The translations under genes and the position numbers were made by a program. A stretch of 64,000 bases of DNA, from NCBI RefSeq assembly GCF_000521785.1, contig NZ_JALZ01000003.1, positions 124,001-188,000 on the forward strand, given 5' to 3'. Origin of the DNA: Roseivivax halodurans JCM 10272 (GTDB lineage Bacteria > Pseudomonadota > Alphaproteobacteria > Rhodobacterales > Rhodobacteraceae). Of the stretch, positions 36,283-53,832 are shown piece after piece. The notes beneath the pieces were generated by a model. The model did not search any database and was not told the origin of the DNA. It saw only the letters and a list, made by a program, of their open reading frames with translations. Position 1 is the stretch's first letter, and each line of letters opens with the position of its first letter.

Positions 36283-36495
36283 ATGGCAATTGAAAAGAGC
36301 GTGGCCTCGGCCTCGATCGCCGAAGTGGTCGACCGCATCCTCGACAAGGGCATCGTGATCGACGCCTTCGTGCGCGTCTCGCTTGTCGGCATCGAACTGA
36401 TCGCCATCGAGGTCCGCGCGGTCGTCGCGTCGATCGAAAGCTGGCTGAAATACGCCGAAGCGGTCGGCCTGACAGTGGAGCCCGCCGCGGCGTGA
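36283..36495 (+). CDS. gvpA: Gas vesicle major structural protein GvpA
   Basis: The 70-residue amphipathic protein that polymerises into the ribs of the gas-vesicle shell. The sequence [20 protein letters not shown] followed by [20 protein letters not shown] is the canonical GvpA helix-strand-strand-helix core. AAGGAA lies 8 bases before the ATG. It is alone on the plus strand, opposite the long accessory operon and convergent with the tyrosine ammonia-lyase gene. A separate transcription unit makes sense because GvpA is needed in large excess over accessory proteins. Confidence 0.96.
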
Positions 36496-36507
36496 CCGCA
36501 TCCGGCC

Positions 36508-36532
36508 AAGGGGTCGGCCCGCCCGGCCCTTT
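36508..36532. terminator. Imperfect hairpin between gvpA and the ammonia-lyase gene
   Basis: AAGGGGTCGG pairs imperfectly with CCCGGCCCTT across GCCC-type loop bases, and TTT follows on the plus strand. It lies between the two convergent stop codons and probably ends gvpA transcription. Confidence 0.4.
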
Positions 36533-36550
36533 GCGCCATCGAATTCTGTT

Positions 36551-38128
36551 CTACTCCGACGGGCAGTCCCGCTCGCGCAAGACAGCCGCCATCGCGGCGA
36601 TGTCTTCCGCCAGGGGGCGATCTTCCTCCAGGATCGGACTGACCGACCGTACGACCCGATGGAGCGCCTCGGCGCTGCGGGAGAACGGGGCTCCACCTTC
36701 GCGCATTCTTAGATCGATGGCCTGAGCGACGGCGAGGGCCAGGATGGCGAGAACCTCGGATCCGCGAAGCGCCGCCTCGTGGGCCCGCCGCGCGGCGATC
36801 GTACCCATCGAGACGACGTCCTGGTTGGCGCCGTTTGTCGAGATCGACTGCGTGCTGGCCGGTCCCGCACTGCGCATCTCGGCGACGAGCGCGGTCGCGG
36901 TGACCTGGGCGCCCATGAGGCCGGAATGCAGGCCGGCACGGCCGCCATGCAGGAAGGCGGGCAGACCGCGATTGAGCCGCTCGTCCGTCAGGCGCGCGAT
37001 CTGCCGCTCGGCAAGCCCCGCGAGCACGGTCAGGGCGGTCGCGAGCGCATCCGAGGCAAGCCCCACATGCTGGCCCATGAAATTGCCGCCGTGCAGAGCC
37101 GGAACTGGCCCGGCCGCCGGTAGGATCGGGTTGTCGGTCACCGAGTTGAGCTCGGTGGTCACGATACCGTCGTGCCAGTCGAGCGTGTCGATGACCGCGC
37201 CCACGATCTGGGGAACGCAGCGCAGGGTGTAGGCGTCCTGCGCGATCTCGTCCCGCGTGGCGCGGGCATCGCCGAGCGAGCGCTCCGCCAGATAAGACCA
37301 TCGCATCCTGGCCGAACCGGCGATCCGGGCTTGCAGGTCGGCCGTCGCGCGCCCCTGCCCCGGATGCGGCCGCGCCTCGGCAAATGTCGCGTCCCAGGCT
37401 TCCGCGCGCCCGCCGAGGCATTCCGACAGGGCGGCGGAGAGACCGAGTTCCCAGCTGCAGAGCCGCCCCGAGATCCGAGCGGTCCGAAGCGCCACACCCG
37501 TCATCGCCGACGTGCCGTTGACCAGCGCCAGCCCGTCCCGTCCGCTGATGTCGAGCGGCACGATACCGATCCGGGCCAACGCGTCCGAAGCTTCGACGAT
37601 CTCGCCCGAGACGGTCAGAAAGGCGCCCCGCCCCTGAAGGCAGAGCACCATGTGCGCGAGCGGAGTCAGATCGCCCGAGGCGCCGACGGTCCCCCTCTCC
37701 GGGATCGCCGGGGCAAGATCGGAATTCAGCACCGCGATCAGCGCCGCGGTCGTCTGCGGCGCGGCCCCCGAAAGGCCTCGGCTGATCGCGGCGAGACGGC
37801 AGAGGACGATCGCGCGCGCCGTCGCCCATCCGAAGGATGGCCCAAGGCCCGTGGCGAGATGGTGAATCAGGTTCTGCTGCAGCGCGATCCCATCTTCCTT
37901 CGCCACCAGCCGGTCGGCCAGCGGCCCGTATCCCGTGGTCAGGCCGTAGACATGACGGCGCTCGGAGATGATCCGGCGAAGACGTGCATGCCCGTCGTGG
38001 CATCGCGCTGTCGCTTCCGGACCGAGCCGGACCGTCACTCGCCCTTCTGCAATGTCGTTGGCGGTGCCGAGATCGAGCGTTCCGGCAAAGTCGTAGGGCG
38101 CGATGCCCAAAGCGCGGTCGAATGCCAT
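36551..38128 (-). CDS. tal: Tyrosine ammonia-lyase for PYP chromophore synthesis
   Basis: Converts L-tyrosine to p-coumaric acid, the PYP chromophore precursor. The 525-residue enzyme of the aromatic amino acid lyase family contains the MIO-forming triad Ala150-Ser151-Gly152 in GTVGASGDL, the helix YGLTTGYGPLADRL and the ISTNGANQDVVSMG block. Residue 89 is histidine (LIHHLATG), the position known to select tyrosine over phenylalanine in the Rhodobacter sphaeroides enzyme, and overall resemblance to that enzyme is strong. Histidine ammonia-lyase is therefore unlikely. It starts 35 bases after gvpK and is the last gene of the long minus-strand unit. Confidence 0.94.
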   Translation of the reverse strand: MAFDRALGIAPYDFAGTLDLGTANDIAEGRVTVRLGPEATARCHDGHARLRRIISERRHVYGLTTGYGPLADRLVAKEDGIALQQNLIHHLATGLGPSFGWATARAIVLCRLAAISRGLSGAAPQTTAALIAVLNSDLAPAIPERGTVGASGDLTPLAHMVLCLQGRGAFLTVSGEIVEASDALARIGIVPLDISGRDGLALVNGTSAMTGVALRTARISGRLCSWELGLSAALSECLGGRAEAWDATFAEARPHPGQGRATADLQARIAGSARMRWSYLAERSLGDARATRDEIAQDAYTLRCVPQIVGAVIDTLDWHDGIVTTELNSVTDNPILPAAGPVPALHGGNFMGQHVGLASDALATALTVLAGLAERQIARLTDERLNRGLPAFLHGGRAGLHSGLMGAQVTATALVAEMRSAGPASTQSISTNGANQDVVSMGTIAARRAHEAALRGSEVLAILALAVAQAIDLRMREGGAPFSRSAEALHRVVRSVSPILEEDRPLAEDIAAMAAVLRERDCPSE

Positions 38129-38163
38129 GGTTGAAATCCCCCGGAGTTGTGGCGCGCCCTGCC

Positions 38164-38496
38164 CTAGATCGTACGTCCGAGCGGGCCGAGATCGATCGCG
38201 AGATCCTCGGGCGAGAGGCCGAACTGCGCCGCCACCTCATGGATGGCCGTCTCGGCGCGCATCAACGTGGTGCCCAGCCTTTCCTCCTGATCCTCGGTCA
38301 GGCTGCCGGCCTCCATCCGCCGGATCGCCTGCAGCTCCATCAGCTGACGCAGACACTCCATCAGTCCCAGGATCAGCTTTGCCAGGTCCTGCTTTACGGT
38401 GTCGGGGTCGATCCGGATCCGCGCCGCCTCGGCGCCCGGGCCGCGCGTCAGCAGATCCGCGATCGCACCGGCATCGATATGCAGAGCCTCGGTCAC
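38164..38496 (-). CDS. gvpK: Gas vesicle protein GvpK
   Basis: A 110-residue accessory protein of gas-vesicle assembly. The core RIRIDPDTVKQDLAKLILG and LMECLRQLMELQAIRRME, then the C-terminal acidic-helical LTEDQEERLGTTLM, are typical of GvpK. The start is a GTG that overlaps the upstream gene stop (GTGA). Its exact role is unsettled; it is part of the minimal gas-vesicle set in many bacteria. Confidence 0.92.
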   Translation of the reverse strand: MTEALHIDAGAIADLLTRGPGAEAARIRIDPDTVKQDLAKLILGLMECLRQLMELQAIRRMEAGSLTEDQEERLGTTLMRAETAIHEVAAQFGLSPEDLAIDLGPLGRTI

Positions 38497-39122
38497 GCCG
38501 GCATGCCGATGTCGGCGAAACCGTAGGCCGGAAGCGGCGCCGCGAGCATCGCGACGCGCCGTTTCCGTCTGCCGACAGAGGCGTGCGAGAGCTCGAGCGA
38601 CAGCCGCTCGAGGATGGAGGGCGCGGCGGCCCGCTCGATCAGCAGATCCACGAGTATGGCCCGCGGGCCCGTCCGTGTGCGCAGGGGAATATCCGGGTCG
38701 AGAGCCGCCCGGACCGTGGTCGTCACGTCGGACGCATCGGCGGCATGGCTCTGCGCCCGTTCTGCCCTGCTGCGCAGCCAGCCGGCTCCGTCGATCGCGT
38801 CGCGAGGGCCCGGAATCGGCTCGGGTTTCTCGACGAACAGCGTTGCCTGGACCCGGCCGGCCAGTGCCGCCAGACATCGCAGCAGATCGCTCGCGTTTTC
38901 CGCCGTCCAGTCGAGCGCATCGCCTGCTGTCACCGCTCTCCCCGGTGCGACGGGCAGGAATTCCGGCAGAGCAGCGGCGCAGGCGCATTGCAGTGCCATC
39001 CTGTCGCGAGCCCGCGCCGCCTTGTCATCCGCTGCGACGACGAGCGACACGGCACCGGCGTCGAGGCAATGACACGGCATCGGCAGCGCGGTGCTGCATC
39101 GGGACCATCCGAGCGTGATCAT
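38493..39122 (-). CDS. Divergent GvpF/GvpL-family protein
   Basis: A 209-residue protein. Its C-terminal block MLAAPLPAYGFADI matches the GPxPxYSF motif that closes GvpF/GvpL proteins, and the pattern of alternating strands and charged helices is similar. The N-terminal YLYG-type strand of typical members is not clear, so it is divergent. GvpF/L proteins bind GvpA monomers and keep them soluble before assembly. It overlaps gvpK by GTGA and the short GvpA-like gene by ATGA. Confidence 0.65.
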   Translation of the reverse strand: MITLGWSRCSTALPMPCHCLDAGAVSLVVAADDKAARARDRMALQCACAAALPEFLPVAPGRAVTAGDALDWTAENASDLLRCLAALAGRVQATLFVEKPEPIPGPRDAIDGAGWLRSRAERAQSHAADASDVTTTVRAALDPDIPLRTRTGPRAILVDLLIERAAAPSILERLSLELSHASVGRRKRRVAMLAAPLPAYGFADIGMPA

Positions 39123-39337
39123 GTCCGGCCCTCTCGGCCGCAGATCCGGTCGGGATTGGCAAGAACGAGGTCAAGCCCGAGGAAGACAAGGTCCACATCC
39201 GCGACGCTGATCCAGGCTTCGCCCCGGAGCACGACACCCTGGTCGAGCAGTCCGTCAAGCAGATCGACGAGCCGGCCGTCCCGGGAGGCAAGGGCTTCAT
39301 CCGGGCCGACGAGGCGCATCTCGAAACCGTCAGGCAT
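39119..39337 (-). CDS. Short GvpA-family accessory protein (GvpJ/M/S type)
   Basis: A 72-residue paralogue of Gvp[21 protein letters not shown] then ISVADVDLVFLGLDLVLA follow the GvpA helix-strand-strand-helix plan but with many changes. Such minor A-like proteins help to nucleate or cap the vesicle tips. I cannot say whether J, M or S is the right letter. It overlaps both neighbours by a few bases. Confidence 0.75.
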   Translation of the reverse strand: MPDGFEMRLVGPDEALASRDGRLVDLLDGLLDQGVVLRGEAWISVADVDLVFLGLDLVLANPDRICGREGRT

Positions 39338-40028
39338 GGCAAGTCTCCGTTCGGGACGAAAACGCGAAGGGGGGCATCGGGCCGGTCATGCAAACCCTGA
39401 GGCCAAGCGCAGCGGCAGGTTTGGCGGCACTATCCATCGCGGAAAGGAGCGCCGGCACATCATCCCGCGCGACGAGCAGCGAATGACAGAGCAGGCGCCC
39501 TCTTGCGGGACGCGGGTTGGACCGCGACGCCGCCGAGTGGGCCCCGCCGGTCACGACGAGGCTCCCCAGAAAGCGCTGCGTCTCCATCGCCCGCGTCTGA
39601 CGCGCGTCGCGTCGGCGCCGCCGGTCTGTCAGGAAAGCCGCTCCGGTCCGCGGCGGCTCCGTCGGGCGATCCGGCTGCGGATCGGCCTGCTCGGCGCAGA
39701 GGTCGTACTGGCAGCGGCCGGCGATCTCCGCCATGGCGCTCTTTAGCTCCGGACCACGCGCGACAAGATGGCCGCGCAGCGCGTCCGGTGAGGAGAACAG
39801 GGACCCGAGCCGGATCGGCAGCACATCCGTCTTCACGGCGATCGCGCACAGGACGGCGTTCTGAAGTTGCGCCCAATCCGAGATGCCTTCAAGCGTCTCG
39901 GCAGCGGCGGGATCGACTTCCGCGCAGATAGCCTGAAGATCCGGGGCGCGGACCGCTGCGAAGGCCGGACCATCGCCGGGCAGATCCCTGCCGGCGGCGA
40001 CGACGCCCAGAAACAGCAGCGGCGTCAT
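39330..40028 (-). CDS. GvpF/GvpL-family protein
   Basis: A 232-residue GvpF/L homologue. It has the opening beta strand LLFLGVVAAG in place of the usual YLYGI, the middle segment VLPIRLGSLFSSPDALRGHL and the terminal motif GPMPPFAFSS. A cysteine and arginine-rich linker (about 110-145) is unusual. It overlaps the downstream and upstream genes. It is expected to act as a cytoplasmic GvpA-binding chaperone. Confidence 0.8.
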   Translation of the reverse strand: MTPLLFLGVVAAGRDLPGDGPAFAAVRAPDLQAICAEVDPAAAETLEGISDWAQLQNAVLCAIAVKTDVLPIRLGSLFSSPDALRGHLVARGPELKSAMAEIAGRCQYDLCAEQADPQPDRPTEPPRTGAAFLTDRRRRRDARQTRAMETQRFLGSLVVTGGAHSAASRSNPRPARGRLLCHSLLVARDDVPALLSAMDSAAKPAAALGLRVCMTGPMPPFAFSSRTETCHA

Positions 40029-40867
40029 GCGGCGGCCCTCGCGTGAGGCGCGGTCGCGCCGCGTCCCTCGGACCAGATCTCGGCGAGGATAAGAGGGCCG
40101 GCCGGGGCAGCGCAGCCAATCGCGGCGGCCAGGATATCCGCGGCTTCGCGAATGGCGCCCTGACGGCCGGGCCGCGCAGCGAGGAGCGCGGCCCGGCGCG
40201 CAACGCGCAAGGCATCACCATCCGGCATCGCTCCGAGGCCGAGAAGACGCAAGGCAGCCCGGATCCGGCGGGACGAAACGCGACGGAGCCTCAGGCTTGC
40301 AAAGGACACCGCCGGCGCGGGGCCGATCTGGCGGATTTCGAGCCCGGGATATGTCTCGTCGATCTCGGCCAGCGCGGCATCGAGATCCGCTTCCCGGAAC
40401 GCCTCGATGAGAATGACGTGATTGCTGATCAGGGCCTCGTGAACCGGTAGCGCGTGGCAGCTATCGGTCAGGCCGTAGAGACGTCGGGCAAGCTCGGCTG
40501 CAGCCATGGCGCCCTGGAGCGGCGCCGCGTCGCCCGAGCCGACGGTCACCTGGAACTGGACCTTGCCGGCCACTTCCGACGCGGCGCGTTCGAGGAGTGC
40601 GCGATTGGCCTCCACCATCCCCGGCAGCTCGTCATGGGCAAGTTGGGTTCCGGGCATGGCGGGCAGAAGCGCACCGGCGGGCATGAGGGCTTCGAGCCAT
40701 GCCATCCGGCGTGCCGCATCCGCCGCGACCTTGGCCCGGCTGGAGAACCTCGGCGCCGCCGGCCCGAAAATGCCGACAAACCCGCCCGCCGACGCGGCCG
40801 TGGTGCCATGCGGCACGGTCGGGAGCGCATCGGCGGCGAGTAGCGCGATCAGCTCGTCATTCTGCAT
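40025..40867 (-). CDS. GvpF/GvpL-family protein with C-terminal extension
   Basis: A 280-residue protein. Residues about 28-195 carry GvpF/L features (GFVGIFGPAAPRF, MPAGALLPAMPGTQL, and QIGPAPAVSFASLRL as the closing motif). About 85 further helical, alanine-rich residues follow that other family members lack. Its start lies within the end of the AAA ATPase gene (19-base overlap). The extension may contact the neighbouring ATPase; this is inferred only from gene order. Confidence 0.7.
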   Translation of the reverse strand: MQNDELIALLAADALPTVPHGTTAASAGGFVGIFGPAAPRFSSRAKVAADAARRMAWLEALMPAGALLPAMPGTQLAHDELPGMVEANRALLERAASEVAGKVQFQVTVGSGDAAPLQGAMAAAELARRLYGLTDSCHALPVHEALISNHVILIEAFREADLDAALAEIDETYPGLEIRQIGPAPAVSFASLRLRRVSSRRIRAALRLLGLGAMPDGDALRVARRAALLAARPGRQGAIREAADILAAAIGCAAPAGPLILAEIWSEGRGATAPHARAAA

Positions 40868-42954
40868 GTCTGGCTCCCCTCTGAGACAAAATCGGTGCTG
40901 CGGACCTGCAGGGCCGCCCGGCGCGCCGCGAGCGCCGCGGCGACATCCTCACCGGTGATTTCCGGCGCTGCGGGGCTCTCTCCTCCCGCAATCAGGCGGG
41001 CAAGCGCCGCGCGCGCGGCGGCGGCGACGAGATCGGCGAGGTCGGCGCCGCTCGCCCCTTCCGTCTCCGCCGCGATCGCCTCGGCCGTCACGTCCGGCGC
41101 GCAGGGCCGGCCCGCGAGGTGGACGGCGAGGATCGAGGCGCGTTCCGCCGCCTCGGGAACCGCGCAGTCGATGACCGCGTCGAACCGCCCCGGGCGGGTG
41201 AGCGCGGGATCGAGCGACGCCGCGCGGTTTGTGGCGGCGACAACCAGCACGTCCTCGCGATCTTCCAACCCATCGAGTTCCACCAGAAGCTGCGCGACGA
41301 TGCGGTCGAGCACCGCGTCCTGGCCGCCGCGACGCGGCGCCAGCGCATCGAACTCGTCGAAGAAGATCAGCGTCGGCGCTGTGTCCCGCGCCGTCCGGAA
41401 TATGTCCGACACGGCCCGTTCGGCATCGCCGAGATATCGCGACAGGACGCGCGGAGGGCGGACCGGCACGAGGTTCATCCCGGTTTCGGTCGCGAGCGCC
41501 CGGGCGAGCAGCGTCTTCCCCGATCCGGGTGGTCCCGAAAGCAGCACGCCGCGTGCCGGCCTGACGCCGAGCGCCGCGCACAAGCCGGGGTGACGGCGCG
41601 GCTGCAACAGAGCCACATCGAGCGCATGGCGCGCGGCGGTGAGACCGCCGAGGTTGTCCCAGGTCACCGGTCGGGCCTCGCTCGACAGGCCTCGCAAGGC
41701 GCTCGGTCCGGTGGCATCGAGGCCCGCGCGGAGGTCTGCCTGCGTGATCGTCAGATCCTCGAGCGCGACGTTCGCCTCCCCCTTCGCGTCCTTCACCGCG
41801 CGCGACAGGGCCGCGACAGCCGCTTCCCGCGCGAGTGCGGCGAGGTCGGCTCCGACATAGCCGTGGGAGGCCTCGGCGATGGCTGCAAGATCGGCGTCCC
41901 GAGCCAGCGGCGATCGGGCTAGGTGAACCTCAAGGATCGCGCGGCGCTGGTCGGGCGTGGGCGGCCTGAAGGCGATCTCGCGGTCGAAGCGGCCGGGGCG
42001 GCGCAGTGCCGGATCGATCATGTCGGGCGGGTTCGTCGCCGCCAGGACGACGACGCGGCCACGATCCTCGAGGCCGTCGAGCAAGGTCAGGAGCTGCGCC
42101 ACCACGCGCCTCTCAACCTGTTTCTCATCCGAAAGCGCGGCGCGGGCAGGCGCGATCGCATCGATCTCGTCGATGAACAGGATGGCCGGGGCCGCGCGGC
42201 GCGCAGATTCGAATATCTCGCGCAGAGCCCGTTCGCTCTCCCCATAATGCTTGCTGACGATCTCGGGTCCCGCGATGTGGAAGAAGCTCGCCTGCGTGCG
42301 GGCCGCCACGGCGCGCGCCAGCAGCGTCTTGCCCGACCCCGGCGGGCCGGTGAAGAGGATGCCGCGCGGAGCCGGCAGGCCGAGACGTTCGTAGAGCTCG
42401 GGCCGCAGGAGCGGCGCAGCCACGACCTCGTGGACCTGAGCGATCTGCGTCTCGAGACCGCCGATGCCGTCGTAGGGCCGGGCGGTTCGCGTCACCAGCG
42501 ATATGGTCGTCGCCTCGGTCAGGAACCCGGCGGGCTCGGGCGAGACTTCGGCAATCTCGACATCCGCGGCATGTCCACCAGGGAGCGCGACCCGGAGCCG
42601 GTCGCCCTCGGTGAGGGCCATGTCGAAGAGACCGTCCCGAAGATCGTCCGGGCGGGCGCGTTCCATGGCGTCGAGCCGCAGAGCGACGGACCGCAGCGGC
42701 GCCAGTGCGGCACGGCAAAGCGTGACGGGCTCGCCCTCGGCGACGCCGGAATTCCCGGCAAGACACGCACCGAGCGCGACGTCACCGTCTGCCACATCGC
42801 CCGGGACGGCGCGGCCATGGGTCTCGCGCGCGCCGCCGACCCGGACCGGGTCTCCCGGCAGGAGGCCGCCCCTTGCCAGGGCGCCGCGCGAGAGCCGTAC
42901 GAGCCCGCGCTTCTCCTCGGGATCGAGCCGCGCGGTGAGGGTCAGGCCGCTCAT
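40849..42954 (-). CDS. CDC48/VAT-like tandem AAA ATPase of the gas-vesicle cluster
   Basis: A 701-residue protein with the CDC48 plan. There is an N-domain (about 1-145, with LSRGALARGGLLPGDPVRV like the double-psi barrel) and two AAA modules. D1 has Walker A GPPGSGKT (203-210) and Walker B ILFIDEID (258-265). D2 has Walker A GPPGSGKT (474-481) and Walker B LIFFDEFD (529-536). Arginine-finger regions RRPGRFD and TRPGRFD are present, so both rings should hydrolyse ATP. It probably unfolds or remodels a protein during vesicle assembly or breakdown. It is coupled to gvpG by ATGA. Confidence 0.9.
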   Translation of the reverse strand: MSGLTLTARLDPEEKRGLVRLSRGALARGGLLPGDPVRVGGARETHGRAVPGDVADGDVALGACLAGNSGVAEGEPVTLCRAALAPLRSVALRLDAMERARPDDLRDGLFDMALTEGDRLRVALPGGHAADVEIAEVSPEPAGFLTEATTISLVTRTARPYDGIGGLETQIAQVHEVVAAPLLRPELYERLGLPAPRGILFTGPPGSGKTLLARAVAARTQASFFHIAGPEIVSKHYGESERALREIFESARRAAPAILFIDEIDAIAPARAALSDEKQVERRVVAQLLTLLDGLEDRGRVVVLAATNPPDMIDPALRRPGRFDREIAFRPPTPDQRRAILEVHLARSPLARDADLAAIAEASHGYVGADLAALAREAAVAALSRAVKDAKGEANVALEDLTITQADLRAGLDATGPSALRGLSSEARPVTWDNLGGLTAARHALDVALLQPRRHPGLCAALGVRPARGVLLSGPPGSGKTLLARALATETGMNLVPVRPPRVLSRYLGDAERAVSDIFRTARDTAPTLIFFDEFDALAPRRGGQDAVLDRIVAQLLVELDGLEDREDVLVVAATNRAASLDPALTRPGRFDAVIDCAVPEAAERASILAVHLAGRPCAPDVTAEAIAAETEGASGADLADLVAAAARAALARLIAGGESPAAPEITGEDVAAALAARRAALQVRSTDFVSEGSQTCRMTS

Positions 42955-43184
42955 CCGCGCGTATCCCGCAGGCGTTCGAGAAGGTCGCTTTCGAGAGCGT
43001 CGTAGGCCTCCTCGTCGATCTCGCCCGCCAGCAACCGGCGTTCGGCCTCGCCGAGCGCGGCGCGAAGGGTGGCCGGATCGTTGCGTTGCGCCTCCGCGGT
43101 CTCGGCGAGTTTTCTTGCGACCCAGAACGCGCCCGCGGCCGGGCCCGTCACCGGCAAGGTCAGAAGCTTCGAGACCAGCCCCAT
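42951..43184 (-). CDS. gvpG: Gas vesicle protein GvpG
   Basis: A 77-residue helical accessory protein. The N-terminal MGLVSKLLTLPVTGPAAGAF and the C-terminal LLAGEIDEEAYDALESDLLE match GvpG. It lies between gvpF and the AAA ATPase gene with overlaps of one and four bases, which is usual for gvpF-gvpG neighbours. The frame runs on to 43319, but the overlap and homology set the start at 43184. Confidence 0.88.
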   Translation of the reverse strand: MGLVSKLLTLPVTGPAAGAFWVARKLAETAEAQRNDPATLRAALGEAERRLLAGEIDEEAYDALESDLLERLRDTRG

Positions 43185-43927
43185 CACGCGGCCTTCCGCG
43201 CGGCGAGCGTGAGCCGCGTGAAACTGTAGGCGGGCTGCGGTCCGACGAGACGCACATGCGGCTCTCCTGTCGAGAAGCCGCACTCCCGGGCAGCATCGAG
43301 CACCGCCCCGGCCACCCAATCCGAAGATTCGGCCCGAAGGAGTATGTCCGCGGCGAGCACCTGGACATCGGTCTCGGGGGCGCGAAGGACGTGATCGACG
43401 ATGGCGGGCCGGATCGCAGCGAGGAGGCGCTTCTGCGCCTGGCCGCGCCGCCGGTCGAGCGCTTCAGCGATCCTCCGACCGAATGACGCGCAATCCTGCG
43501 GCACCGCCCTCCGCCGCTTGAGCGCGTCGCGCTCCGCCAGCAGTGTCGGCTCGTCGGCGAGCAGAGCCGCAAGCGCAGGGTCCCGGTCGAACGTCACCCT
43601 GACGCCGTACTCGACGGTGCCCGACAGCCGCTCCATCTCTGCCGCGATCCGCGCGCTCTGCGCGGAGATGAGGTCCGCGACCGCCCCGAGATCCTCGACC
43701 AGCATGCCGAACCGCATGGGCAGGACGGTTCCGCGCGCCGCGGCATCCTCGAGCACCCGCGCATGCGCAAGCATGAGACGGCGCCTCGGCAGGATCTCCG
43801 TCCCGTCGTGACGTCCGTGGAGGAGGCGGCCCTCCGGCAGGACCGCCTCCTCGACCGGACCGGTCACCCCGGGCGGGGACTCGCCGGTGACGCCACCGGC
43901 AGCGAGGATCCCATAGAGATAGATCAT
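43184..43927 (-). CDS. gvpF: Gas vesicle protein GvpF (or GvpL)
   Basis: The most typical of the four GvpF/L proteins here (247 residues). It opens with [12 protein letters not shown], contains GTVLPMRFGMLVEDLGAV and closes with LVGPQPAYSFTRLTL. Family members hold GvpA monomers before polymerisation, and GvpF has been found on the gas-facing side of the shell. It overlaps gvpH and gvpG, supporting joint expression. Confidence 0.9.
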   Translation of the reverse strand: MIYLYGILAAGGVTGESPPGVTGPVEEAVLPEGRLLHGRHDGTEILPRRRLMLAHARVLEDAAARGTVLPMRFGMLVEDLGAVADLISAQSARIAAEMERLSGTVEYGVRVTFDRDPALAALLADEPTLLAERDALKRRRAVPQDCASFGRRIAEALDRRRGQAQKRLLAAIRPAIVDHVLRAPETDVQVLAADILLRAESSDWVAGAVLDAARECGFSTGEPHVRLVGPQPAYSFTRLTLAARKAA

Positions 43928-46309: not shown

Positions 46310-47767
46310 TCAGACGGATGATCCGACCGTCGTCGCATGGGCGAGATGCTCGAGGTCGATGCGCGGCAATACGTTGGGCTCGTTGCGAAGCTTGACGAGC
46401 CCCTCCTCGACCATGAGCCCGGTCTTGTCGTCCGCCCGCCATTCCGACGCCTCGATACCGTCCACCCTGTCGACCACGAAGCCCACCCGTCGATCGGGCG
46501 GCCCCACGAGCAGGACACGCCGCTGATCTGCCTCTCCCGCGGCCGAAAAGCCGAGCCGGCGCGCCAGACAGACAAGCGGCACGAGGCGTCCGCCATCGGC
46601 AAAGAGGCCCATGAGCCCCGCCGGCCCCGAAAGCGGCGTGACATCGCGGGGCGGCTCGAGGATCTGGACGAGCTGCCTGATCGGCGTCGCCAAGCGTGAT
46701 CGGGCGGTGAAGACCATGTACCGGGCGTCGTCGCGGATGATGTCCGCGCGCTTGCCTTTGTCGTCGCCCGTACCGCGCCCGCCGGGCCCCGCATCGGCGT
46801 TGGCTGTCGGATCCGAAAGGGCGGCCATCGCGGCGAGATCTCGCGACGCCGCCAGGGCATCGTGGTCGAGCACGAAAGTCTGCGCACCGCCCTCCTCGAC
46901 CAGAACCGATCTCAGCGGCGCGCCGGACCCTTCGAAAGCCGGACCGGGAGACTGCAGATCCGCGCTTCGGATGAGCGCGATCCGGCAGATCACGTCCACG
47001 GCCAGACCGAGCAATCGCTCGTCCGGGAAGCGCACCACCACGACCTCGGGCGCCTCGGGCGCAGCGCCACGGCCGAGGCCCAGGATCGCCGAGGCCTGCA
47101 TCACCGGGATGCGCCTTCCGTGCTGGCGGATCGAGCCGAGGCAGATATCCGTCGTCAGCGAATCGCGCGGGATGCGCTGGCGCGGCACCGTTCCGGAGAT
47201 TTTCAGGGCCTCGAGGCCGAAGGTCGCGCCGCCGGCCCGAAAGGTCAGATAGGCCTGCGTGTCCGTCGCTATCCCCTGACGCTTGGTGCGCAGGCTCGAG
47301 GCCGCTGCGGGCAGATCGACGCGCCCGAAGAGGGGCGCGGGGTCAATGCAGGACACGAGCCTGCCGTCGCGAAAGAAGCCGCCGGTCACGAAGGCGCCAT
47401 CACCTTGGTCGCGAAAAAGTCTCTGGACGCCACCCGCCGCCGGTTCCGTAAGGCCGACGACACGGTCGATGCCGAGCCCGATCGTGCGGCCGTCCGACTC
47501 AAGAAGAGCCGCGATCGTAGGCGGTTTCGGCGATGGATCGAGCCCGCAGAGGCGGTTCGGGTCGAGGATGGGCACAATCGTTCCGCGCAGATCGATGACG
47601 CCCAGGACCTCGGGTGCGGCGGTCATCAGCGGCGCGAGGCGGTCGATCATGCAGACTTCCGTCAGGAACCTCAGATCGACACCGACGCGACTGCTGCCGA
47701 TATCAAGCAGACCGAAAGACACCTCCCCCTCGGAGGGCGGCATGGCTGCCGGCGCCTGGGCGGACAC
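46310..47767 (-). CDS. Triple CheW-domain chemotaxis adaptor
   Basis: A 485-residue soluble protein made of three CheW-like domains (about 15-150, 170-305 and 345-480). Repeated CheW marks are PEVLGVIDLRGTIVPILDPN, GSIRQHGRRIPVMQASAILG and PAGLMGLFADGGRLVPLVCL, each with the RG/GR-x-x-P strand and a VVDRVDG-like strand in the third. CheW domains link chemoreceptors to CheA kinase. The GTG start lies one base after the chemoreceptor stop, so the two are produced together. No cheA is in the window, so it may serve a distant kinase or act without one. Confidence 0.85.
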   Translation of the reverse strand: MSAQAPAAMPPSEGEVSFGLLDIGSSRVGVDLRFLTEVCMIDRLAPLMTAAPEVLGVIDLRGTIVPILDPNRLCGLDPSPKPPTIAALLESDGRTIGLGIDRVVGLTEPAAGGVQRLFRDQGDGAFVTGGFFRDGRLVSCIDPAPLFGRVDLPAAASSLRTKRQGIATDTQAYLTFRAGGATFGLEALKISGTVPRQRIPRDSLTTDICLGSIRQHGRRIPVMQASAILGLGRGAAPEAPEVVVVRFPDERLLGLAVDVICRIALIRSADLQSPGPAFEGSGAPLRSVLVEEGGAQTFVLDHDALAASRDLAAMAALSDPTANADAGPGGRGTGDDKGKRADIIRDDARYMVFTARSRLATPIRQLVQILEPPRDVTPLSGPAGLMGLFADGGRLVPLVCLARRLGFSAAGEADQRRVLLVGPPDRRVGFVVDRVDGIEASEWRADDKTGLMVEEGLVKLRNEPNVLPRIDLEHLAHATTVGSSV

Positions 47768-47768
47768 G

Positions 47769-50573
47769 TCAGGTCCTCCCGCCGAACTCGCACATCACGG
47801 CACCGATCGCGCCGATCGTCTGGGACTGCGCCTCGCAGTTCGACATCAGCGTCGAGACGCTTTCACCGCTGGCACGGATGTCGTCCGCGGTCCGGTTCAG
47901 AATCGCGATGGTTTCCTGCGCTGCGCCCGTGCCGCGTCCCACGCTCTCGGACGCCGCTTCGAGTTGGCGGGAGATGTCCCGCGCGGCATCCGCGTTGCGC
48001 TCGGCGAGCTTGCGGACCTCGTCGGCCACGATCGAGAAGCCTACCCCGTATTCTCCGGCTCTCGCCGCCTCGATCGCCGCGTTGAAAGCCAGAAGGTTCG
48101 TCTGGACCGCGATCTCCGCCACAACCTCGACGATCTGATCGATCTTCTCGATCGCGCCGGTGACGCCGCCCATATCCCGCAATCCAGACGCGAGCGCGCC
48201 CTCGCCCTGAACGAGGGTTTCGCGCGAGCGCGTCAGAGCCTCGCTGAGCGCGCCATGCCCGCCCCGGATCTGCACGCCTGCTTCACGCAGCGCCTCGATC
48301 TGCCCGCCGACCTCTGTGGCCCGCTTTTCCGTTTCGTCGCGGAGCCGGACATGGTCGGTGACCTCGATCGCATGCATGATCACACCGCTGACCGCGCCGG
48401 ACGTGTCGTGGATCGGACTGAAATTGGCCTGGAGATACATGTCCCGATCGAACCGTGCGACGTAGTGATAACAGTCCGAGCGCTCTTCGCCTTTGGCCAG
48501 ATCCTGCCAGAAGTCGCGGTACTCCTGCGAGCGCGCCTGCGCGAGAGTGCAGAACATGCTGTGATGCTGGCCCACGATCTCGCGAAGGGAATATCCCGCG
48601 GTGCGCAGGAACGCCTCGTTCGCGCCGGTGATCTTGCCCTCGCAGTCGAATTCGCAGATCGGATGCGCCCGCGACGTGGTCTGCCATTTCTCCTCGAGTT
48701 TGGCCTGCCGGATCCGGACATCGGTGATGTCGTAGGCGTATTTGACGACGCGAATGGGTTGGCCGGCAAGATCGAGGATCGGGTTGTAGCTGGCCTGGAA
48801 CCAGAGTTCGCGCCCCCCCGAGCCGACACGTCTCACCTCCTGTTCGATGATCTGACCCTCGCCGAGACGTTCCCAGAATCGGCGATATTCTTCACTCTTC
48901 GCGAAATCCGGCGGGCACAGCATCGCGTGTTTGCGGCCTTTCAGTTCCTCGAGCGAATACCCGACCGTTTCGACGAAGACCTTGTTGGCCGAGATGATGG
49001 TCCCGTCCATTTCGAACTCGATCACGGCCATGGAGCGTTCGATCGCATCCATCCGTGCCTGCGCATGGATCTGGCCGAGTTTGACCTCGCTGATGTCCGA
49101 TCCGTAGAAGAAGACGGTCTCGATCCGTCCGTCGGTCTCGCGCCGAAGCGGAACGTAACTCGCCTGGAACCAGGCGTCTTTGCCGTCGACCCCCAAGCGC
49201 CGGAACTGACCGCTGACCCGCTCGCCCTGGTTGAGCCTGTCCCAGAACAGGGAATAGCGGCGGCCTTTCGCGAAATCCTGCGGCACGGTCATGCGATGGT
49301 CGAGCCCTTTCAGCTTGCCGCGATCGAACCCGAGAAGCTCGGCGTATCGGGCATTGCCCTCGATCAGTCGTCCCGTTACGTCCCACTCGACGATGGCAAG
49401 GTCGCCGCTCAGCGCGTCGTAGCGTGTCTCCAGGTTTGCGAGGCGCTCGTGATCGTCGTGAATGACCGTACCGATCTCGTAGATCGCGGTGATCCTGCCC
49501 GACGCGTCCGGAACAGGAACGAATTGGCTCCGGGTCCAGCACAGCTGATGATCCGCGTTCAGATGCGGGATGTCGATCTGCTGCGCCTCTCCGCCGACAA
49601 CCTTGTCCCATGCCGCCCGGAAGGTCGCGCCGAGCGCAAATTCCGCGTCCATGAAGCGCCGAAGATGCTTGCCGGTGAGGTCGTCCGGTTCGGAGCCGAG
49701 GAGGCTCTGCATGCACGAGTTGCTCGCCAAGACGTGACCTTCGATATCGAGCTCGGCCACGGCCAGAACCGACCAGGCGGCCCGGGCGCGAGCCGCGTCC
49801 ACCATCGAACGCTCTGTTTCGTCAGTCACGTCCATGAGGCACTGCACCACAGTCGAGACGTGCCCTGCATCACCCCGGCGCGGAATGTATGTCGATTGCA
49901 GCCAGACGATGTTCCCCTCTGCCGTGACATGGGCATGCCTGCCCTCCACGATACGGCCCTCGCGCAGCTTCTCCCAGAAGGCGACATAGTCGGGCGTCTG
50001 CGTGATCGAGGCAGGCCAGAGACTGTCATGGCCCCGGCCGGTCATCTCTTCGGAATAGAACTCGAGAGCCATCTTGGCGCGATCGTTGGCCGTCAGGACG
50101 ACACCGTCGGCATCGAACTCGATGATCCCGACCACGTCGCCGAGCGCGGCCACGGCACCTGTCGGAGCAGGGCGCTCTTGCGCCGATTGTCCATCGGACT
50201 CGGTCGCATGAAGGATGACGTGGCCGGTCCCGCCTTCGCTGTCACTACAAGCCGCGATAAAATCCACCGGATGCTCGGACGAAGACAGCGTCGCGACGAG
50301 CGTGCCGCGCCACCGCCTGACAGAGCCTGAACGCAGAGCGCTCCAGAGATCTGGCGCGCCCGAGCCGTCCGCACGGCACAGCGCGTCGAAGGTGTGGTCG
50401 CCAAAAGCGTCCTCGGAGATCTCGAGCAAGAAAATCGCCGCCTCGTTGGCGTGAACCAGAGCTCCGGTCTCGGCGTCGAAGGTCAACGTCAAGCCTGTCT
50501 CGAGAAGCGCGGCGCCCAATGCGCGCGCCGCCATGTCGATCGGCAGGCCGCTTGGGAGGTGGGTATCCGGCAT
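47769..50573 (-). CDS. Soluble chemoreceptor with six PAS domains
   Basis: A 934-residue cytoplasmic methyl-accepting-type signal protein without transmembrane helices or HAMP. Six PAS units follow in order (about 30-125, 145-255, 268-375, 390-500, 512-620 and 635-742). Several share the LWxxLRxGxxxxxxxRR and WFQASYxPIxD pattern of tandem chemoreceptor PAS domains. The C-terminal signalling hairpin (about 760-930) has the tip EIAVQTNLLAFNAAIEAARA followed by GFSIVADEVRKLAE. I chose the ATG at 50573 rather than a TTG at 50621. It sits between the PYP ligase and gvpN, coupled to the triple-CheW gene. Confidence 0.9.
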   Translation of the reverse strand: MPDTHLPSGLPIDMAARALGAALLETGLTLTFDAETGALVHANEAAIFLLEISEDAFGDHTFDALCRADGSGAPDLWSALRSGSVRRWRGTLVATLSSSEHPVDFIAACSDSEGGTGHVILHATESDGQSAQERPAPTGAVAALGDVVGIIEFDADGVVLTANDRAKMALEFYSEEMTGRGHDSLWPASITQTPDYVAFWEKLREGRIVEGRHAHVTAEGNIVWLQSTYIPRRGDAGHVSTVVQCLMDVTDETERSMVDAARARAAWSVLAVAELDIEGHVLASNSCMQSLLGSEPDDLTGKHLRRFMDAEFALGATFRAAWDKVVGGEAQQIDIPHLNADHQLCWTRSQFVPVPDASGRITAIYEIGTVIHDDHERLANLETRYDALSGDLAIVEWDVTGRLIEGNARYAELLGFDRGKLKGLDHRMTVPQDFAKGRRYSLFWDRLNQGERVSGQFRRLGVDGKDAWFQASYVPLRRETDGRIETVFFYGSDISEVKLGQIHAQARMDAIERSMAVIEFEMDGTIISANKVFVETVGYSLEELKGRKHAMLCPPDFAKSEEYRRFWERLGEGQIIEQEVRRVGSGGRELWFQASYNPILDLAGQPIRVVKYAYDITDVRIRQAKLEEKWQTTSRAHPICEFDCEGKITGANEAFLRTAGYSLREIVGQHHSMFCTLAQARSQEYRDFWQDLAKGEERSDCYHYVARFDRDMYLQANFSPIHDTSGAVSGVIMHAIEVTDHVRLRDETEKRATEVGGQIEALREAGVQIRGGHGALSEALTRSRETLVQGEGALASGLRDMGGVTGAIEKIDQIVEVVAEIAVQTNLLAFNAAIEAARAGEYGVGFSIVADEVRKLAERNADAARDISRQLEAASESVGRGTGAAQETIAILNRTADDIRASGESVSTLMSNCEAQSQTIGAIGAVMCEFGGRT

Positions 50574-50651
50574 TCGGCGTATGTCCTTCGTTGCTCGTGC
50601 GCGACCGCAATAGAGGTACAAAATTAAGGGCCGGTTGATCCGCGGCGGATC

Positions 50652-51887
50652 TTACCAATCCGACAGCTTTCCCATTGCGGTGCGGGGGATCGACACGCCG
50701 AAGGTGATCCGGTCCGGGCGTGCCGGAGGTGGAAGGGCGGTCATCGCCCTGCGGATTCCGGCATCGAGTTCGGTGAGATCCCGGCCGGGCATCGGCACGA
50801 CAAACGCCTTGAGACGCTCTCCGCCGAGCCGGACGGCGGCGTCACTGACACCGGGGAGCGCGGCGATGCGCGCGGCAACCTCCTGCGGATCGACATTCGT
50901 CGCAGCAACCTGCACGACGCCGTCCTTGCGCCCCCCTAGCCGGAATCGTGTGGCGTCCTGCCATTCGATCCTGTCGGGAAGGGCGATCTCTGACGTCGAT
51001 CCGCGACGCGACACTCCGTCGCCGATCCGCGCGAGATTGGGGAAGAGGAGGAACGGCTCCTGATCAGATCGTCGCACGCCGACACCGCCGGTCTCGGTCG
51101 ACCCGTAGATTTCGAGGAACCACTCAAGACGGAGTGCGCCGGCCACAGACCAGGTCTCTTCGGTTGTGGCGCCGCCCGAGGAGACGCCGCATATCTTTCC
51201 CGGCAGAAGGCCGAGGGCTGAGCAGCGATCCCACTGGAACGGCGTTGCCACGATGAGATCGCCCGGACGCGCCTTTCGCGCGATCCCGGTCGGCGAAGCC
51301 GCGTCGAGTTCCAGGCATTCAACCCCAAGTGCCCGCGGCAGGAGTATACCCCATAGAAACCCGTAGAGATGTCGCGGCGACACCAGCGAGAGGACGCGTT
51401 CCGGGCGGTTGGGCAGAACGCCGGAGACGATCGCCCGGATTTCGTGATCGAGCTCGGCCCGGCCACGGAGAATGATCCGCGGCTTTCCCGTCGAACCCGA
51501 TGTCGAGAAGCCGATCGCGGCGTCCCCGCCCATATGGTCGAGGTGCCAGGCGATCCGGCGCACCCAGGCGCCGAGGGTGCGTTCGATCAGCAGATAGTCT
51601 TCGGCGCCAGTCGCCGAAAGGTCGAAGAACCCGGTCAGGTCCGAGACCAGATCGATTCTTGCGAGGCTGTCGAGCCCGAGATCCGGCTCGTCGATCCGGA
51701 TGGCATCCGGCTCGCCCGCAGCGCGGATCATAGCGACATGAATGTGCGTATCCGGGGCCAGCCGACCTTCGCGGATCATCCGATCCTGCGTGGCAGCTAT
51801 GACCGCGATGCAAAGGCGGCGGACCGAATGCTCGTCGATCCAGGAGGCCCCGGGATGTTCCGCGTCCTTACCCGCCGGAGACGCCAT
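50652..51887 (-). CDS. pcl: p-Coumarate:CoA ligase for PYP chromophore activation
   Basis: Activates p-coumaric acid so that it can be attached to the PYP cysteine. At 411 residues it is shorter than plant 4-coumarate ligases and fits the PYP-activation branch. AMP-binding motifs are TSGSTGKP (129-136), EIYGSTETGG, and a C-terminal lysine in AMGKLSDW (Lys407). Residues about 20-110 look like an acyl-carrier domain, with LGLDSLARIDLVSDLTGFF resembling the phosphopantetheine site (Ser74). It starts 5 bases after the 165-aa unknown gene. Confidence 0.92.
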   Translation of the reverse strand: MASPAGKDAEHPGASWIDEHSVRRLCIAVIAATQDRMIREGRLAPDTHIHVAMIRAAGEPDAIRIDEPDLGLDSLARIDLVSDLTGFFDLSATGAEDYLLIERTLGAWVRRIAWHLDHMGGDAAIGFSTSGSTGKPRIILRGRAELDHEIRAIVSGVLPNRPERVLSLVSPRHLYGFLWGILLPRALGVECLELDAASPTGIARKARPGDLIVATPFQWDRCSALGLLPGKICGVSSGGATTEETWSVAGALRLEWFLEIYGSTETGGVGVRRSDQEPFLLFPNLARIGDGVSRRGSTSEIALPDRIEWQDATRFRLGGRKDGVVQVAATNVDPQEVAARIAALPGVSDAAVRLGGERLKAFVVPMPGRDLTELDAGIRRAMTALPPPARPDRITFGVSIPRTAMGKLSDW

Positions 51888-51892
51888 ACGGC

Positions 51893-52390
51893 TCAGACCG
51901 CGCTGCCGCCGGCGGCCTCGATCTCGGAGAAGAGTTCGCCGGCAAGTCCGCCGAAGTGCAGCCGCGCCGCGCTGACCTTCGACTGAAGATCCATGGCCCG
52001 CGCCGCCAGTTCAGCCGGCACCATGGCGCCGAGATCCAGAACCGGCATACGAATATCGCGCGCCGCATCATAATGCTCGATCGCGTCGAGCGCTTCGGCC
52101 AGGGTCTCGAACGACCAGGCGCGGCATACGTCCTGCTCGGCTTCGGACTGGAAGAATTGCCGGATCGCGACGACGAAATGCTGCTCTTCGGTGCGATAGA
52201 GATTGACCTCGTACCAGTAGGGAAGTTCGGGCGTGAAGCTCATGGCCATCGCCAGCTCCGTTCCAGCGAAGACGAGCGGGCGCGCGCCGGGACGCGGCAG
52301 GCGATAGGACGTCGCGACGCCCAACCCGGGCATCTCGGTCCCGGCACTCGACGATCCGGTCTTCTCGACCGCAGACATCTGGTAGTTCAT
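51893..52390 (-). CDS. Unknown 165-aa protein in the PYP cluster
   Basis: I recognise no family. The first half has aromatic beta-type strands (PLVFAGTELAMAMSFTPELP, YWYEVNLYRTEEQHFVVAI) and the second half is helical (FETLAEALDAIEHYDAARDI and a C-terminal helix pair). The strand part resembles a small sandwich or ligand pocket. The ATG overlaps the previous stop (ATGA) with AAGGA upstream, and it lies directly before the ligase gene, so a role with PYP or its chromophore is plausible. Confidence 0.65.
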   Translation of the reverse strand: MNYQMSAVEKTGSSSAGTEMPGLGVATSYRLPRPGARPLVFAGTELAMAMSFTPELPYWYEVNLYRTEEQHFVVAIRQFFQSEAEQDVCRAWSFETLAEALDAIEHYDAARDIRMPVLDLGAMVPAELAARAMDLQSKVSAARLHFGGLAGELFSEIEAAGGSAV

Positions 52391-52983
52391 GTGATGAATC
52401 CTTCGGATTGGGCTGGATCAGGCATGAACGGCGGAACGGTGGGTACCGGACCGCCGAGGGGATCGAGGCGACTGGCAATTACATCGGCCGAGGTGAGCAT
52501 GACGCCGGCGGCGAGGAAGCATGCCGCGCCGCCGGATCGAGCGAGAAAGTTTCGAAACTCGTAAGATTCGCCGATCCGTTCCGCGCGCCAGACCGGCCGT
52601 GCCGGAAGGCCGTCCTCGGGATGATAGGCGATCTGGGCCATCAATCCGCCATCCTCGGATAGATAGAGCCGAAGGGTTCGAACCACGCCACTGGCAGCCA
52701 ATCCGGGGAGCGGAATCCGGCTCCGGTCTTCCCAGAGAAGTGCGCCACGGCCCTCGAGAGGTCGGGTGCCGTCACGGCGCAGTCGGACAGGCGCGAAGGG
52801 GGCATCCTGGGTAAAACCGTCAGCTTCGGAACAGGCATCTTCTGGGTTGGGGCCGACCAGTGTTGCCGGCGGCAAGGGCCCGACCTTCGCCGGTCCAGGC
52901 TCACGCTCTGCGCGCCCGCCCAGGAGGCGGATCAGCAGAGGCGAGACGGTCGCCTCGAAGGTCGGATCGCAGAGCGCCGGCAC
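52387..52983 (-). CDS. Unknown 198-aa protein following PYP
   Basis: No family is recognised. The product has a proline-rich middle, beta-type strands (LRLYLSEDGGLMAQIAYHPE, VWRAERIGESYEFRNFLARS) and a hydrophobic C-terminal stretch (GGAACFLAAGVMLTSADVIA) that could be a weak membrane or buried helix. It starts at a GTG 15 bases after the pyp stop with a good AAGGGGG before it, which makes the gene credible despite lacking homology. Confidence 0.6.
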   Translation of the reverse strand: MPALCDPTFEATVSPLLIRLLGGRAEREPGPAKVGPLPPATLVGPNPEDACSEADGFTQDAPFAPVRLRRDGTRPLEGRGALLWEDRSRIPLPGLAASGVVRTLRLYLSEDGGLMAQIAYHPEDGLPARPVWRAERIGESYEFRNFLARSGGAACFLAAGVMLTSADVIASRLDPLGGPVPTVPPFMPDPAQSEGFIT

Positions 52984-52998
52984 TGCCGCCCCCTTGGA

Positions 52999-53373
52999 TC
53001 AGGCGCGCTTCACGAAGAGCCAGCAATGCTGGCCATCGGGCTGCGATTTCAGATGGATCTTCACGCCGACATTCGCGCCCTTGTAGGCGAACTTGTAGTC
53101 GAACATGACGTTGATCTGACCGCTCTGGTGGAACTTGAGGAACTCTCCGTGAAACCGCTTGCCCTTGGCGCAGGGCGCGATCTCGTTGAAGAAGTTCTTG
53201 CCGATGACGTCCGCGGGATTGCGGTTGGCGATCATCCTCTCGGCCTTGTTGTACTTCACGATCGTCCCGTGGCGATCAAGCAGAACGGCGCCGAAGGGCA
53301 GATACTCCGCGCGCTGGGGTTCGCGGCTCAGGATGTTGTCGACATCCTGGCTGCCGAAGGGAATGATTTCCAT
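52999..53373 (-). CDS. pyp: Photoactive yellow protein
   Basis: A cytoplasmic blue-light receptor of 124 residues with the single PAS fold, carrying p-coumaric acid on a cysteine. Key residues equivalent to the Halorhodospira halophila protein are present: Tyr41 (Y42), Glu45 (E46), Arg51 (R52) and the chromophore cysteine Cys68 (C69) in FFNEIAPCAKG. Position 49 is Ala where that protein has Thr50; 50 is Asn instead of Gly51; and 99 is Gly instead of Met100. The latter two changes are those I recall in Rhodobacter PYPs. It has an AAAGGAT ribosome-binding site, with TAL, the ligase and gas-vesicle genes downstream. Confidence 0.95.
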   Translation of the reverse strand: MEIIPFGSQDVDNILSREPQRAEYLPFGAVLLDRHGTIVKYNKAERMIANRNPADVIGKNFFNEIAPCAKGKRFHGEFLKFHQSGQINVMFDYKFAYKGANVGVKIHLKSQPDGQHCWLFVKRA

Positions 53374-53403
53374 CTTCTGATCCTTTGTCCTGGAACGACC
53401 CGC

Positions 53404-53832
53404 TTAGTCGGATGAGGTCTCGACCCCATCCTCGTTCTTGAGGAAGGAATCGCTGAAGGTGAGCGACATGTCGTGGATGCGGCGGTAGGGATTGCCGTCA
53501 TACTCGGCGCCGAGTTTCTCGCGCCCCTCGGGCGCGGCCCATTTGTAGTCCATCCGCCCCATCGTCACGATGCATTGCGGGATGGTGTCGAAGCGTTGGG
53601 CCATGGCGAATTTCTGCGCCTCGACCTCGATCTCAGAGGCCTCTTCGAACTCCACGAGCGACGTGAGCTCTTCAACGGTGCTTTCCGCCTCGAGCTTGGC
53701 GGTGCAGCTCAGGACCTCGCTCGCGGCCTGCATCACCCATTCGGGGTGATCGCCGCGCACGATGAGGCCCATCTCGGGAATGCGGAACTCGTAGCGTCCG
53801 TCGGCCTCTGTCAGTTGTCCAACTTCAGTCAT
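53404..53832 (-). CDS. Unknown 142-aa protein preceding PYP
   Basis: No named family is recognised. The acidic product has a short beta-like N-terminus (RYEFRIPEMGLIVRGDHPEW), a central helical part (LEAESTVEELTSLVEFEEAS) and a C-terminus with MGRMDYKWAAPEGREKLGAE. AAAGGAG sits 10 bases before the ATG. It is the first gene of the minus-strand unit, 30 bases before pyp, so it is the natural candidate for a PYP partner. The frame continues to 54345, but other genes there run the opposite way. Confidence 0.7.
   Translation of the reverse strand: MTEVGQLTEADGRYEFRIPEMGLIVRGDHPEWVMQAASEVLSCTAKLEAESTVEELTSLVEFEEASEIEVEAQKFAMAQRFDTIPQCIVTMGRMDYKWAAPEGREKLGAEYDGNPYRRIHDMSLTFSDSFLKNEDGVETSSD

Follow-up and report, generated by a model that had tools for sequence, protein, structure and literature searches.

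Genes for photoactive yellow protein (PYP) have been found near a related gas-vesicle (gvp) cluster in Rhodobacter capsulatus SB1003 and Loktanella sp. SE-62 (PMC3646047, citing Kyndt et al. 2004), and a preliminary description of the DNA considered here rightly mentioned such a linkage in Rhodobacter. The gas-vesicle clusters of Octadecabacter are reported to be not directly related to this PYP-linked type (PMC3646047). In Halorhodospira halophila, PYP, its p-coumarate:CoA ligase (pCL) and its tyrosine ammonia-lyase (TAL) are encoded in a pyp-pCL-TAL operon, and an association of PYP with chemoreceptors is known from PYP-MCP fusions, such as that of Nitrincola alkalilacustris (PMC12826048; Table 2 of this survey, as drawn on here, gives no operon count for MCP). 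The window analysed here is a 64-kb stretch of the 4.49 Mb draft genome of Roseivivax halodurans JCM 10272 (genome G000; contig NZ_JALZ01000003.1, G000:C3:124001-188000), and all positions below are those of the window. It resembles the R. capsulatus and Loktanella loci in that pyp lies close to a related gvp cluster, and the H. halophila operon in that PYP, ligase and lyase are encoded together. Unlike the former, as described in the passages of PMC3646047 used here, it adds chromophore genes within the run, a chemoreceptor and a triple-CheW protein, an unnamed protein family (u1, u2 and y) and two further genes, x and z; unlike the fusions, it encodes PYP and chemoreceptor as separate genes. 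The R. capsulatus pyp locus and H. halophila lie outside the loci compared below.

A 2017 review described the downstream partners of PYP as unidentified and, outside the Halorhodospira type, listed no known function for it in purple bacteria (PMC5812497), and a 2025 survey treats the PYP signal chain as a gap (PMC12826048). The locus matters because of this missing partner and role: the genome evidence points to gas vesicles as an output of PYP and to specific candidate genes. Neither of two surveys of the PYP family (PMC12826048, PMC9664959) has ‘gas ves’, ‘gas vesicle’ or ‘gvp’ in its main text. In the open-licence literature on PYP, gas vesicles, CtrA and light, the u1 family or a link between PYP and buoyancy appears in none of the titles and abstract openings listed, and nothing was found there joining Roseivivax with gas vesicles. 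New here are the observations that all five PYP genomes of the family sample fall within its gvp genomes, and that the u1 family lies near pyp in all 27 gvp-bearing PYP genomes examined. On this basis the locus is probably, at roughly 60%, a PYP-controlled gas-vesicle (buoyancy) system, although the step by which blue light would set buoyancy is one that we infer from gene content.

The block runs from gvpA at 36283 past pyp to x, and then on through the divergent pair y-z to 55803. The minus strand carries, in transcriptional order, x, pyp, u2, u1, pCL, mcp, cheW3, gvpN, sm, gvpO, a gvpJ-type gene and hsp20, followed by gvpF, gvpG, an AAA ATPase gene, gvpL2, gvpL1, a gvpM-like gene, orfL, gvpK and TAL; gvpA, on the plus strand, converges onto the TAL end of this run, and y-z, also on the plus strand, diverge from the x end. 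Joints within the run measure -19 to +35 bp, except between mcp and pCL (78 bp) and between gvpN and cheW3 (64-109 bp, the start of gvpN being uncertain), and the short overlaps and gaps at most joints resemble those of translationally coupled operons. At 370 bp, the interval separating x from y is wider than any other. Scans for promoters and terminators found no sigma-70-like or terminator-like sites above chance in 36101-56000. The genes named in the preliminary description (PYP, TAL, pCL, MCP, triple CheW and the gvp set on the minus strand, gvpA on the plus strand) are all present and score as named, but it overlooked the family of u1, u2 and y together with x and z. Its placing of the lyase and PYP at the two ends of the unit set one end too early, as x lies upstream of pyp and y-z are also members.

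The lyase, which makes p-coumarate, and the ligase together yield p-coumaroyl-CoA and so provide the chromophore of PYP; the gvp genes build vesicles. The pyp gene (52999..53373, minus strand) matches TIGR02373 with 177.1 bits against a cut-off of 143.05, over residues 2-124 of 124. Aligned to an H. halophila PYP sequence, its product keeps the equivalents of the chromophore-bearing Cys69 and of Tyr42, Glu46 and Arg52 of the active site, while Thr50 is replaced by Ala; it is predicted to carry a p-coumaroyl chromophore and to undergo a photocycle. The pCL gene (50652..51887, minus strand) scores 360 bits with TIGR02372 (cut-off 335). TAL (36551..38128, minus strand) matches PF00221 with 466 bits, and its nearest solved relative is 2o6y (E 1.1e-175), deposited under the title ‘putative histidine ammonia-lyase’, which we take to be the R. 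sphaeroides tyrosine lyase. It contains ASG, the MIO-forming motif, and has His where, in the alignment, variant 2o78 differs from 2o6y, which is the position of the Tyr-selective His89. Against NCBIfam, TAL falls below every cut-off, the best models being histidine ammonia-lyase and tyrosine aminomutase, with no PYP-type lyase among the listed models. TAL was present in 7 of 113 predicted pyp operons in a survey (PMC12826048), so that a complete chromophore set in one run is uncommon; in this locus it sits beyond the gvp genes, at the far end from pyp.

The association extends beyond the window. In a sample of 394 genomes of the family, in which PYP was counted only above cut-off and gvp was scored as a GvpL/F match, PYP was found in five genomes (G000, G115, G176, G285 and G364), all of them within the nine that have GvpL/F (hypergeometric p 1.6e-9, kinship ignored). 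The gvp genes are also present in G395 and G417, which have no PYP, u1-family or x match. With an alignment of PYPs as query, 253 relatives were confirmed, the best 80 of which were used as PYP loci, with at most 10 kb on either side of pyp examined. Genes for gas vesicles lie near pyp in 24 of these 80 loci, all within L026-L058, and their order differs among L038, L040-L042, L048-L052 and L054. In Rubrimonas (L038), TAL, gvpA and z are upstream of x-pyp, as are most gvp genes in Rhodoblastus, Methylobacterium and Parvularculaceae (L040-L042); gvpA and z come after x-pyp in Acetobacteraceae (L049, L050, L052) and before it, on the other strand, in L054. No gvp or u1-family match was found in L059-L105, which are mostly from Gammaproteobacteria and many of which have pyp-pCL-TAL. 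Linkage of pyp and gvp thus persists through rearrangement in several alphaproteobacterial orders, for which inertia alone is a hard explanation. The earlier suggestion of a single functional system comprising PYP, the enzymes for its chromophore and the gas vesicles gains support from the co-occurrence in the family, from this linkage and from a block of the same order at a different site in Roseivivax isoporae.

The strongest candidates for a link between PYP and gas vesicles are three paralogues: u1 (51893..52390, minus strand), u2 (52387..52983, minus strand; diverged from u1, E 1e-18 with the u1 profile) and y (54203..54685, plus strand; E 1e-22). They cannot be regarded as three unrelated unknowns, as each profile finds the others. 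The u1-family profile gave 74 domain matches, of which 71 are spread over 29 PYP loci and the other three fall in the window. Among 50 PYP genomes, with u1 scored in the DNA retained around pyp and gvp across whole genome records of unstated completeness, GvpA-family genes were found in 27, and all 27 have the u1 family near pyp; two have u1 alone, none has gvp alone and 21 have neither (Fisher p 4e-12, kinship ignored). In the family sample, the u1 family was found in nine of the 394 genomes, seven of them with gvp, the exceptions being G172 and G030 (E 9e-4). A distance of about 160 kb separates pyp-u1-pCL from gvp in Rhodovulum sp. 12E13, where three more u1-family frames adjoin the gvp cluster, and in HLUCCA09, where pyp and gvp are on separate contigs, u1-family frames occur at both.

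The nature of the u1 protein can be approached through its predicted structure, in which five strands are joined by a long helix at the C-terminus (pLDDT 90.7, pTM 0.79). Among solved structures its most consistent neighbour is Borrelia Pur-alpha (E 0.023-0.14, probability 0.89-0.99, TMt 0.46-0.55), which is not significant, and a phage coat protein ranks first (E 0.017, probability 0.60). When Pfam was compared with 54 u1-family members, no model matched more than one member at E 0.5, and u1 itself had no Pfam match. The EXLDI family TIGR04342 gave 20 bits with u1, below its cut-off of 32, and matched three of the 54 members at E 0.01, while the u1 profile had a single match among PDB sequences (E 0.92). 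From the model, u1 is possibly a nucleic-acid-binding relay of PUR/whirly-like fold, which is a lead only.

A mechanism can be outlined from these genes. By established enzymology, lyase and ligase make p-coumaroyl-CoA, which loads PYP; blue/UV-A light would then cycle PYP. Lacking an output domain, PYP must work through another protein, and the best candidate partners are the u1-family proteins, with u1 and u2 encoded directly downstream of pyp and y divergently. Through these proteins, and perhaps x and z, light may alter the amount of gas vesicle made, the point of action being either gvp expression or vesicle assembly; gvpA, on the opposite strand, implies a separate transcript. The soluble PAS chemoreceptor and triple-CheW protein, which accompany the vesicle genes in Roseivivax and a small number of further genera, plausibly pass related signals to the single CheA and the flagella. 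What the sequences show directly is gene content, conservation and co-occurrence; the light effect, the contact between PYP and u1 and the direction of the response are features that we infer from them. A fuller version may be offered tentatively, at somewhat short of even odds: u1, u2 and y would be the missing alphaproteobacterial PYP partner, whose light-switched binding, possibly through a PUR-like nucleic-acid-binding fold, would govern vesicle formation and so give a light-to-buoyancy behaviour distinct from phototaxis, to which some genera add the chemoreceptor/triple-CheW pair. Inactivation of pyp left photomovement unchanged in other purple bacteria (PMC5812497, citing Kort 2000), which leaves room for an output other than swimming.

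Several observations weigh against PYP control of gas vesicles. The fold of u1 gave no structural match at E <= 0.001. The sphingomonad PYP genomes L043 and L047 have u1 with no GvpA-family match, and the GvpA-family scan covered 50 of the 80 PYP-locus genomes, leaving out the other 30 and the class-level PYP genomes G051 and G055. Ten more genomes of the family match the PYP model below cut-off, at 21-26 bits within longer frames, and were not counted. G083 has gvp and TAL with no PYP match, and G016 (82% complete) carries gvp along with x, TAL, pCL and a u1-like gene, also with no PYP match. The split loci indicate that adjacency is not required. Moreover, a tree was built of 48 PYPs (the window and 47 of the 80 loci, leaving out the partial L046, the broken L058 and 31 others); on it, the gvp label needs only two changes, against a mean of 16.2 after shuffling, so that the 27 gvp genomes are far from independent.

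Direct signalling from PYP to the flagella is an unlikely alternative, in which PYP acts on the adjacent soluble MCP, and through triple CheW and CheA drives phototaxis, with gvp merely co-expressed with motility under CtrA. One run holds pyp, mcp and cheW3. The mcp gene (47769..50573, minus strand) encodes an MCP signalling domain (PF00015, 108 bits against 34.6) and about five PAS domains (five PAS_4 stretches); its product has no strongly hydrophobic segment (maximal 19-residue hydropathy 1.41) and appears to be of cytoplasmic type, lacking classical membrane anchoring, and the solved structure that it matches best is that of an aerotaxis receptor. The triple-CheW coupling protein (cheW3, 46310..47767, minus strand) matches PF01584 in three stretches. 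As the genome has flagellins and only one CheA match, the pair may signal to this CheA, and 12 PYP-MCP fusions are on record (PMC12826048). The distribution of the pair argues otherwise. Both pCL and gvpN lie downstream of pyp on the same strand in 13 loci, in 12 of which there is no room for a chemosensory pair, the midpoints being 1.0-1.5 kb apart compared with 5.6 kb in R. isoporae, the sole locus with the pair between them. The preliminary description had included the chemotaxis-type genes in the unit, of which, by this comparison, they are not an integral part. In Rhodovulum sp. 12E13 and HLUCCA09 the pair lies directly before gvpN and away from pyp, following gvp rather than pyp, and in Salipiger marinus triple CheW comes after gvpK and MCP after gvpA. 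Being beside gvp in these genomes yet missing elsewhere, the pair tracks gas vesicles as an optional addition. Phototaxis also leaves u1 unexplained.

The pair is not a Roseivivax-specific insertion, which is refuted by L112, L130, L046/L129 and a remnant in G172. This last genome, with no GvpL/F or PYP match, retains y-z, a shorter MCP and triple CheW, as well as an x aligned across 63 of 142 positions, and its locus is likely a deletion remnant of the pyp-gvp block. There (L110/L119, G172:C1, about 646600-651300) the truncated x is followed directly by the shorter MCP and triple CheW, with y-z opposite. In R. halodurans, the CheW gene beside the single CheA falls into two frames (G000:C1:407579-407982; L122, L126), and if the split is real, the triple-CheW protein of the block would be the other CheW of the genome.

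The part of the phototaxis explanation that invokes CtrA has support of its own. Gas vesicle genes of R. capsulatus are enriched in a CtrA-affected module (PMC4158056), and gas vesicles of Cereibacter sphaeroides are CtrA-dependent (PMC9430884, PMC11999139); in addition, FnrL is a repressor of two R. capsulatus gvp genes (PMC4634722). In the window, a full CtrA-type site, TTAACGCCGGGTTAA (53955..53969, plus strand), lies between the divergent x and y. It has the form TTAAC-N5-GTTAAC given for CtrA in PMC7232146, and is the sole exact TTAA-N7-TTAA in the 64 kb; none of 100 shuffles had one. Among 18 relatives an exact site was found 5' of x in one (L040), with half-sites in some others, and the region upstream of x, when aligned, has no clear common motif beyond the ribosome-binding site; as a conserved element the site was therefore ruled out. 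CtrA control is supported for relatives, and the full site here would fit, though relatives mostly lack it. A gvpN::uidA reporter exists in C. sphaeroides, which makes gas vesicles (PMC9430884, PMC11999139), and Cereibacter is a workable host genus for studying the link between PYP and gas vesicles.

Equally improbable is a purely historical linkage, in which the genes moved jointly as an island and have separate jobs. The PYPs of gvp genomes do group on the tree, where 26 of them together with the two sphingomonad PYPs are divided from 20 others by a weak split (79/97), and a single origin of the PYP-gvp association, with loss in sphingomonads, is supported by this pattern. The block also appears at different sites in two Roseivivax species: in R. 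isoporae the genes from z to gvpA keep their order, but they do not share a contig with the M48 peptidase gene that adjoins the block here. PYP matches occur in only two of nine genomes of the genus; this peptidase is matched in all nine. Split loci and partial losses are found elsewhere. Between the window and R. isoporae LMG 25204, PYP is 94% and GvpA 96% identical; gvpF, pCL, cheW3 and mcp are mostly 44-56% identical, and eight genes of the flanking block (D to K) 70-90%. No clean empty site was seen in other Roseivivax, as no right-flank gene was found after the M48 peptidase, over stretches of about 3.6 kb (G007, to the contig end), 9 kb (G003) and 10 kb (G001). Against an island of unrelated functions, linkage was retained while order changed in several orders, no PYP above cut-off occurs in the 394 family genomes without gvp, and TAL remains in the gvp cluster even where pyp lies elsewhere, as in Cereibacter johrii, which has u1 genes (L028) and whose pyp is on another contig. 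Phage and plasmid origins were rejected, as no PYP relative was confirmed in viral contigs, u1, u2, x, y, z and orfL have no PHROGs match, u1 has no plasmid match and the four plasmid records with PYP are at most 46% identical.

The x gene (53404..53832, minus strand), apparently first in the run, is found in 18 of the 80 PYP loci and in eight of the 394 family genomes, namely all five with PYP and G016, G172 and G194. It has no Pfam match, and its structure model (pLDDT 71) has no significant structural match. The product of z (54688..55803, plus strand) has a basic N-terminus, a long acidic linker and a C-terminal helix-hairpin-helix-like end, HHH_5 being matched in five of 19 family members. 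In the 80 PYP loci z occurs in 21, adjoining y in 11 and gvpA in nine, and alone in L102.

The window encodes a full gas-vesicle gene set. Eight types are essential in Halobacterium (A, J, M, L, F, G, O and K; PMC3646047) and are present in the Octadecabacter clusters; all eight are matched here, with the M-like protein below its NCBIfam cut-off and L and F not told apart by PF06386. The shell protein gene gvpA (36283..36495, plus strand) matches PF00741 and NF006874 (117.5 bits, cut-off 100). On the minus strand are gvpK (38164..38496; PF05121, 110.7 bits), the gvpM-like gene for a small GvpA-family protein (39119..39337; PF00741, 49.8 bits; NF046091, 30 bits, below the cut-off of 109), two gvpL/F-type genes, gvpL1 (39330..40028; PF06386, 77.6 bits) and gvpL2 (40025..40867; PF06386, 35.1 bits), gvpG (42951..43184; PF05120, 74.6 bits), gvpF (43184..43927; PF06386, 142.4 bits), the gvpJ-type GvpA-family gene (44472..44780; PF00741, 64.8 bits), gvpO (44777..45085; PF05800, 54.8 bits) and the AAA ATPase gene gvpN (45325..46245, with TTG start candidates at 46185 and 46245; TIGR02640, 240.8 bits, below the cut-off of 266.8). 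These nine minus-strand families (K, M-like, two L/F-type, G, F, J-type, O and N) fall short of the at least ten gas-vesicle genes earlier counted in the run, a figure reached only if the Hsp20-type protein and the AAA ATPase, or gvpA, are included.

Four further minus-strand genes accompany them. A CDC48-like double AAA ATPase (40849..42954; TIGR01243, 593 bits, below the cut-off of 803) has homologues in gvp loci, and the Hsp20-type protein (43924..44475; PF00011, 29.2 bits against 20.8) is presumably GvpH-like. The small conserved protein sm (45090..45314) lies in the interval between gvpO and gvpN and has homologues in the same position. The unnamed orfL (38493..39122) has no Pfam or PHROGs match, and its homologues lie in gvp loci L027, L032, L034, L035, L039, L113 and L118.

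Some individual loci may be recorded in their own right. L118 (G083:C5:665000-680000) is a gas-vesicle cluster with TAL and gvpA arranged as in the window, TAL being kept without the photoreceptor. In L114 (G016:C170:1-10381), TAL, x, pCL and a NIT-domain MCP are co-directional at about 2336-8384, in either a sensor-less cluster or one whose PYP is missing from the assembly. An uncultured Rhodospirillales bin (L045, about 6300-7300) has tandem PYP-type frames by u1-family copies and gvpA. In Roseococcus thiosulfatophilus (L058, about 9900-10400), pyp matches fall in two separate frames amid u1-family and gvp genes, from an assembly error or a decayed gene. Directly outside the block in the window, 55776-56561 encodes an ion-channel protein (Ion_trans_2) with a zinc-ribbon match below cut-off. 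Elsewhere in the window, 59736-61829 encodes a glycosyltransferase fused to a sucrose-phosphate phosphatase domain, with a strong match in one of eight other genomes of the genus (G002).

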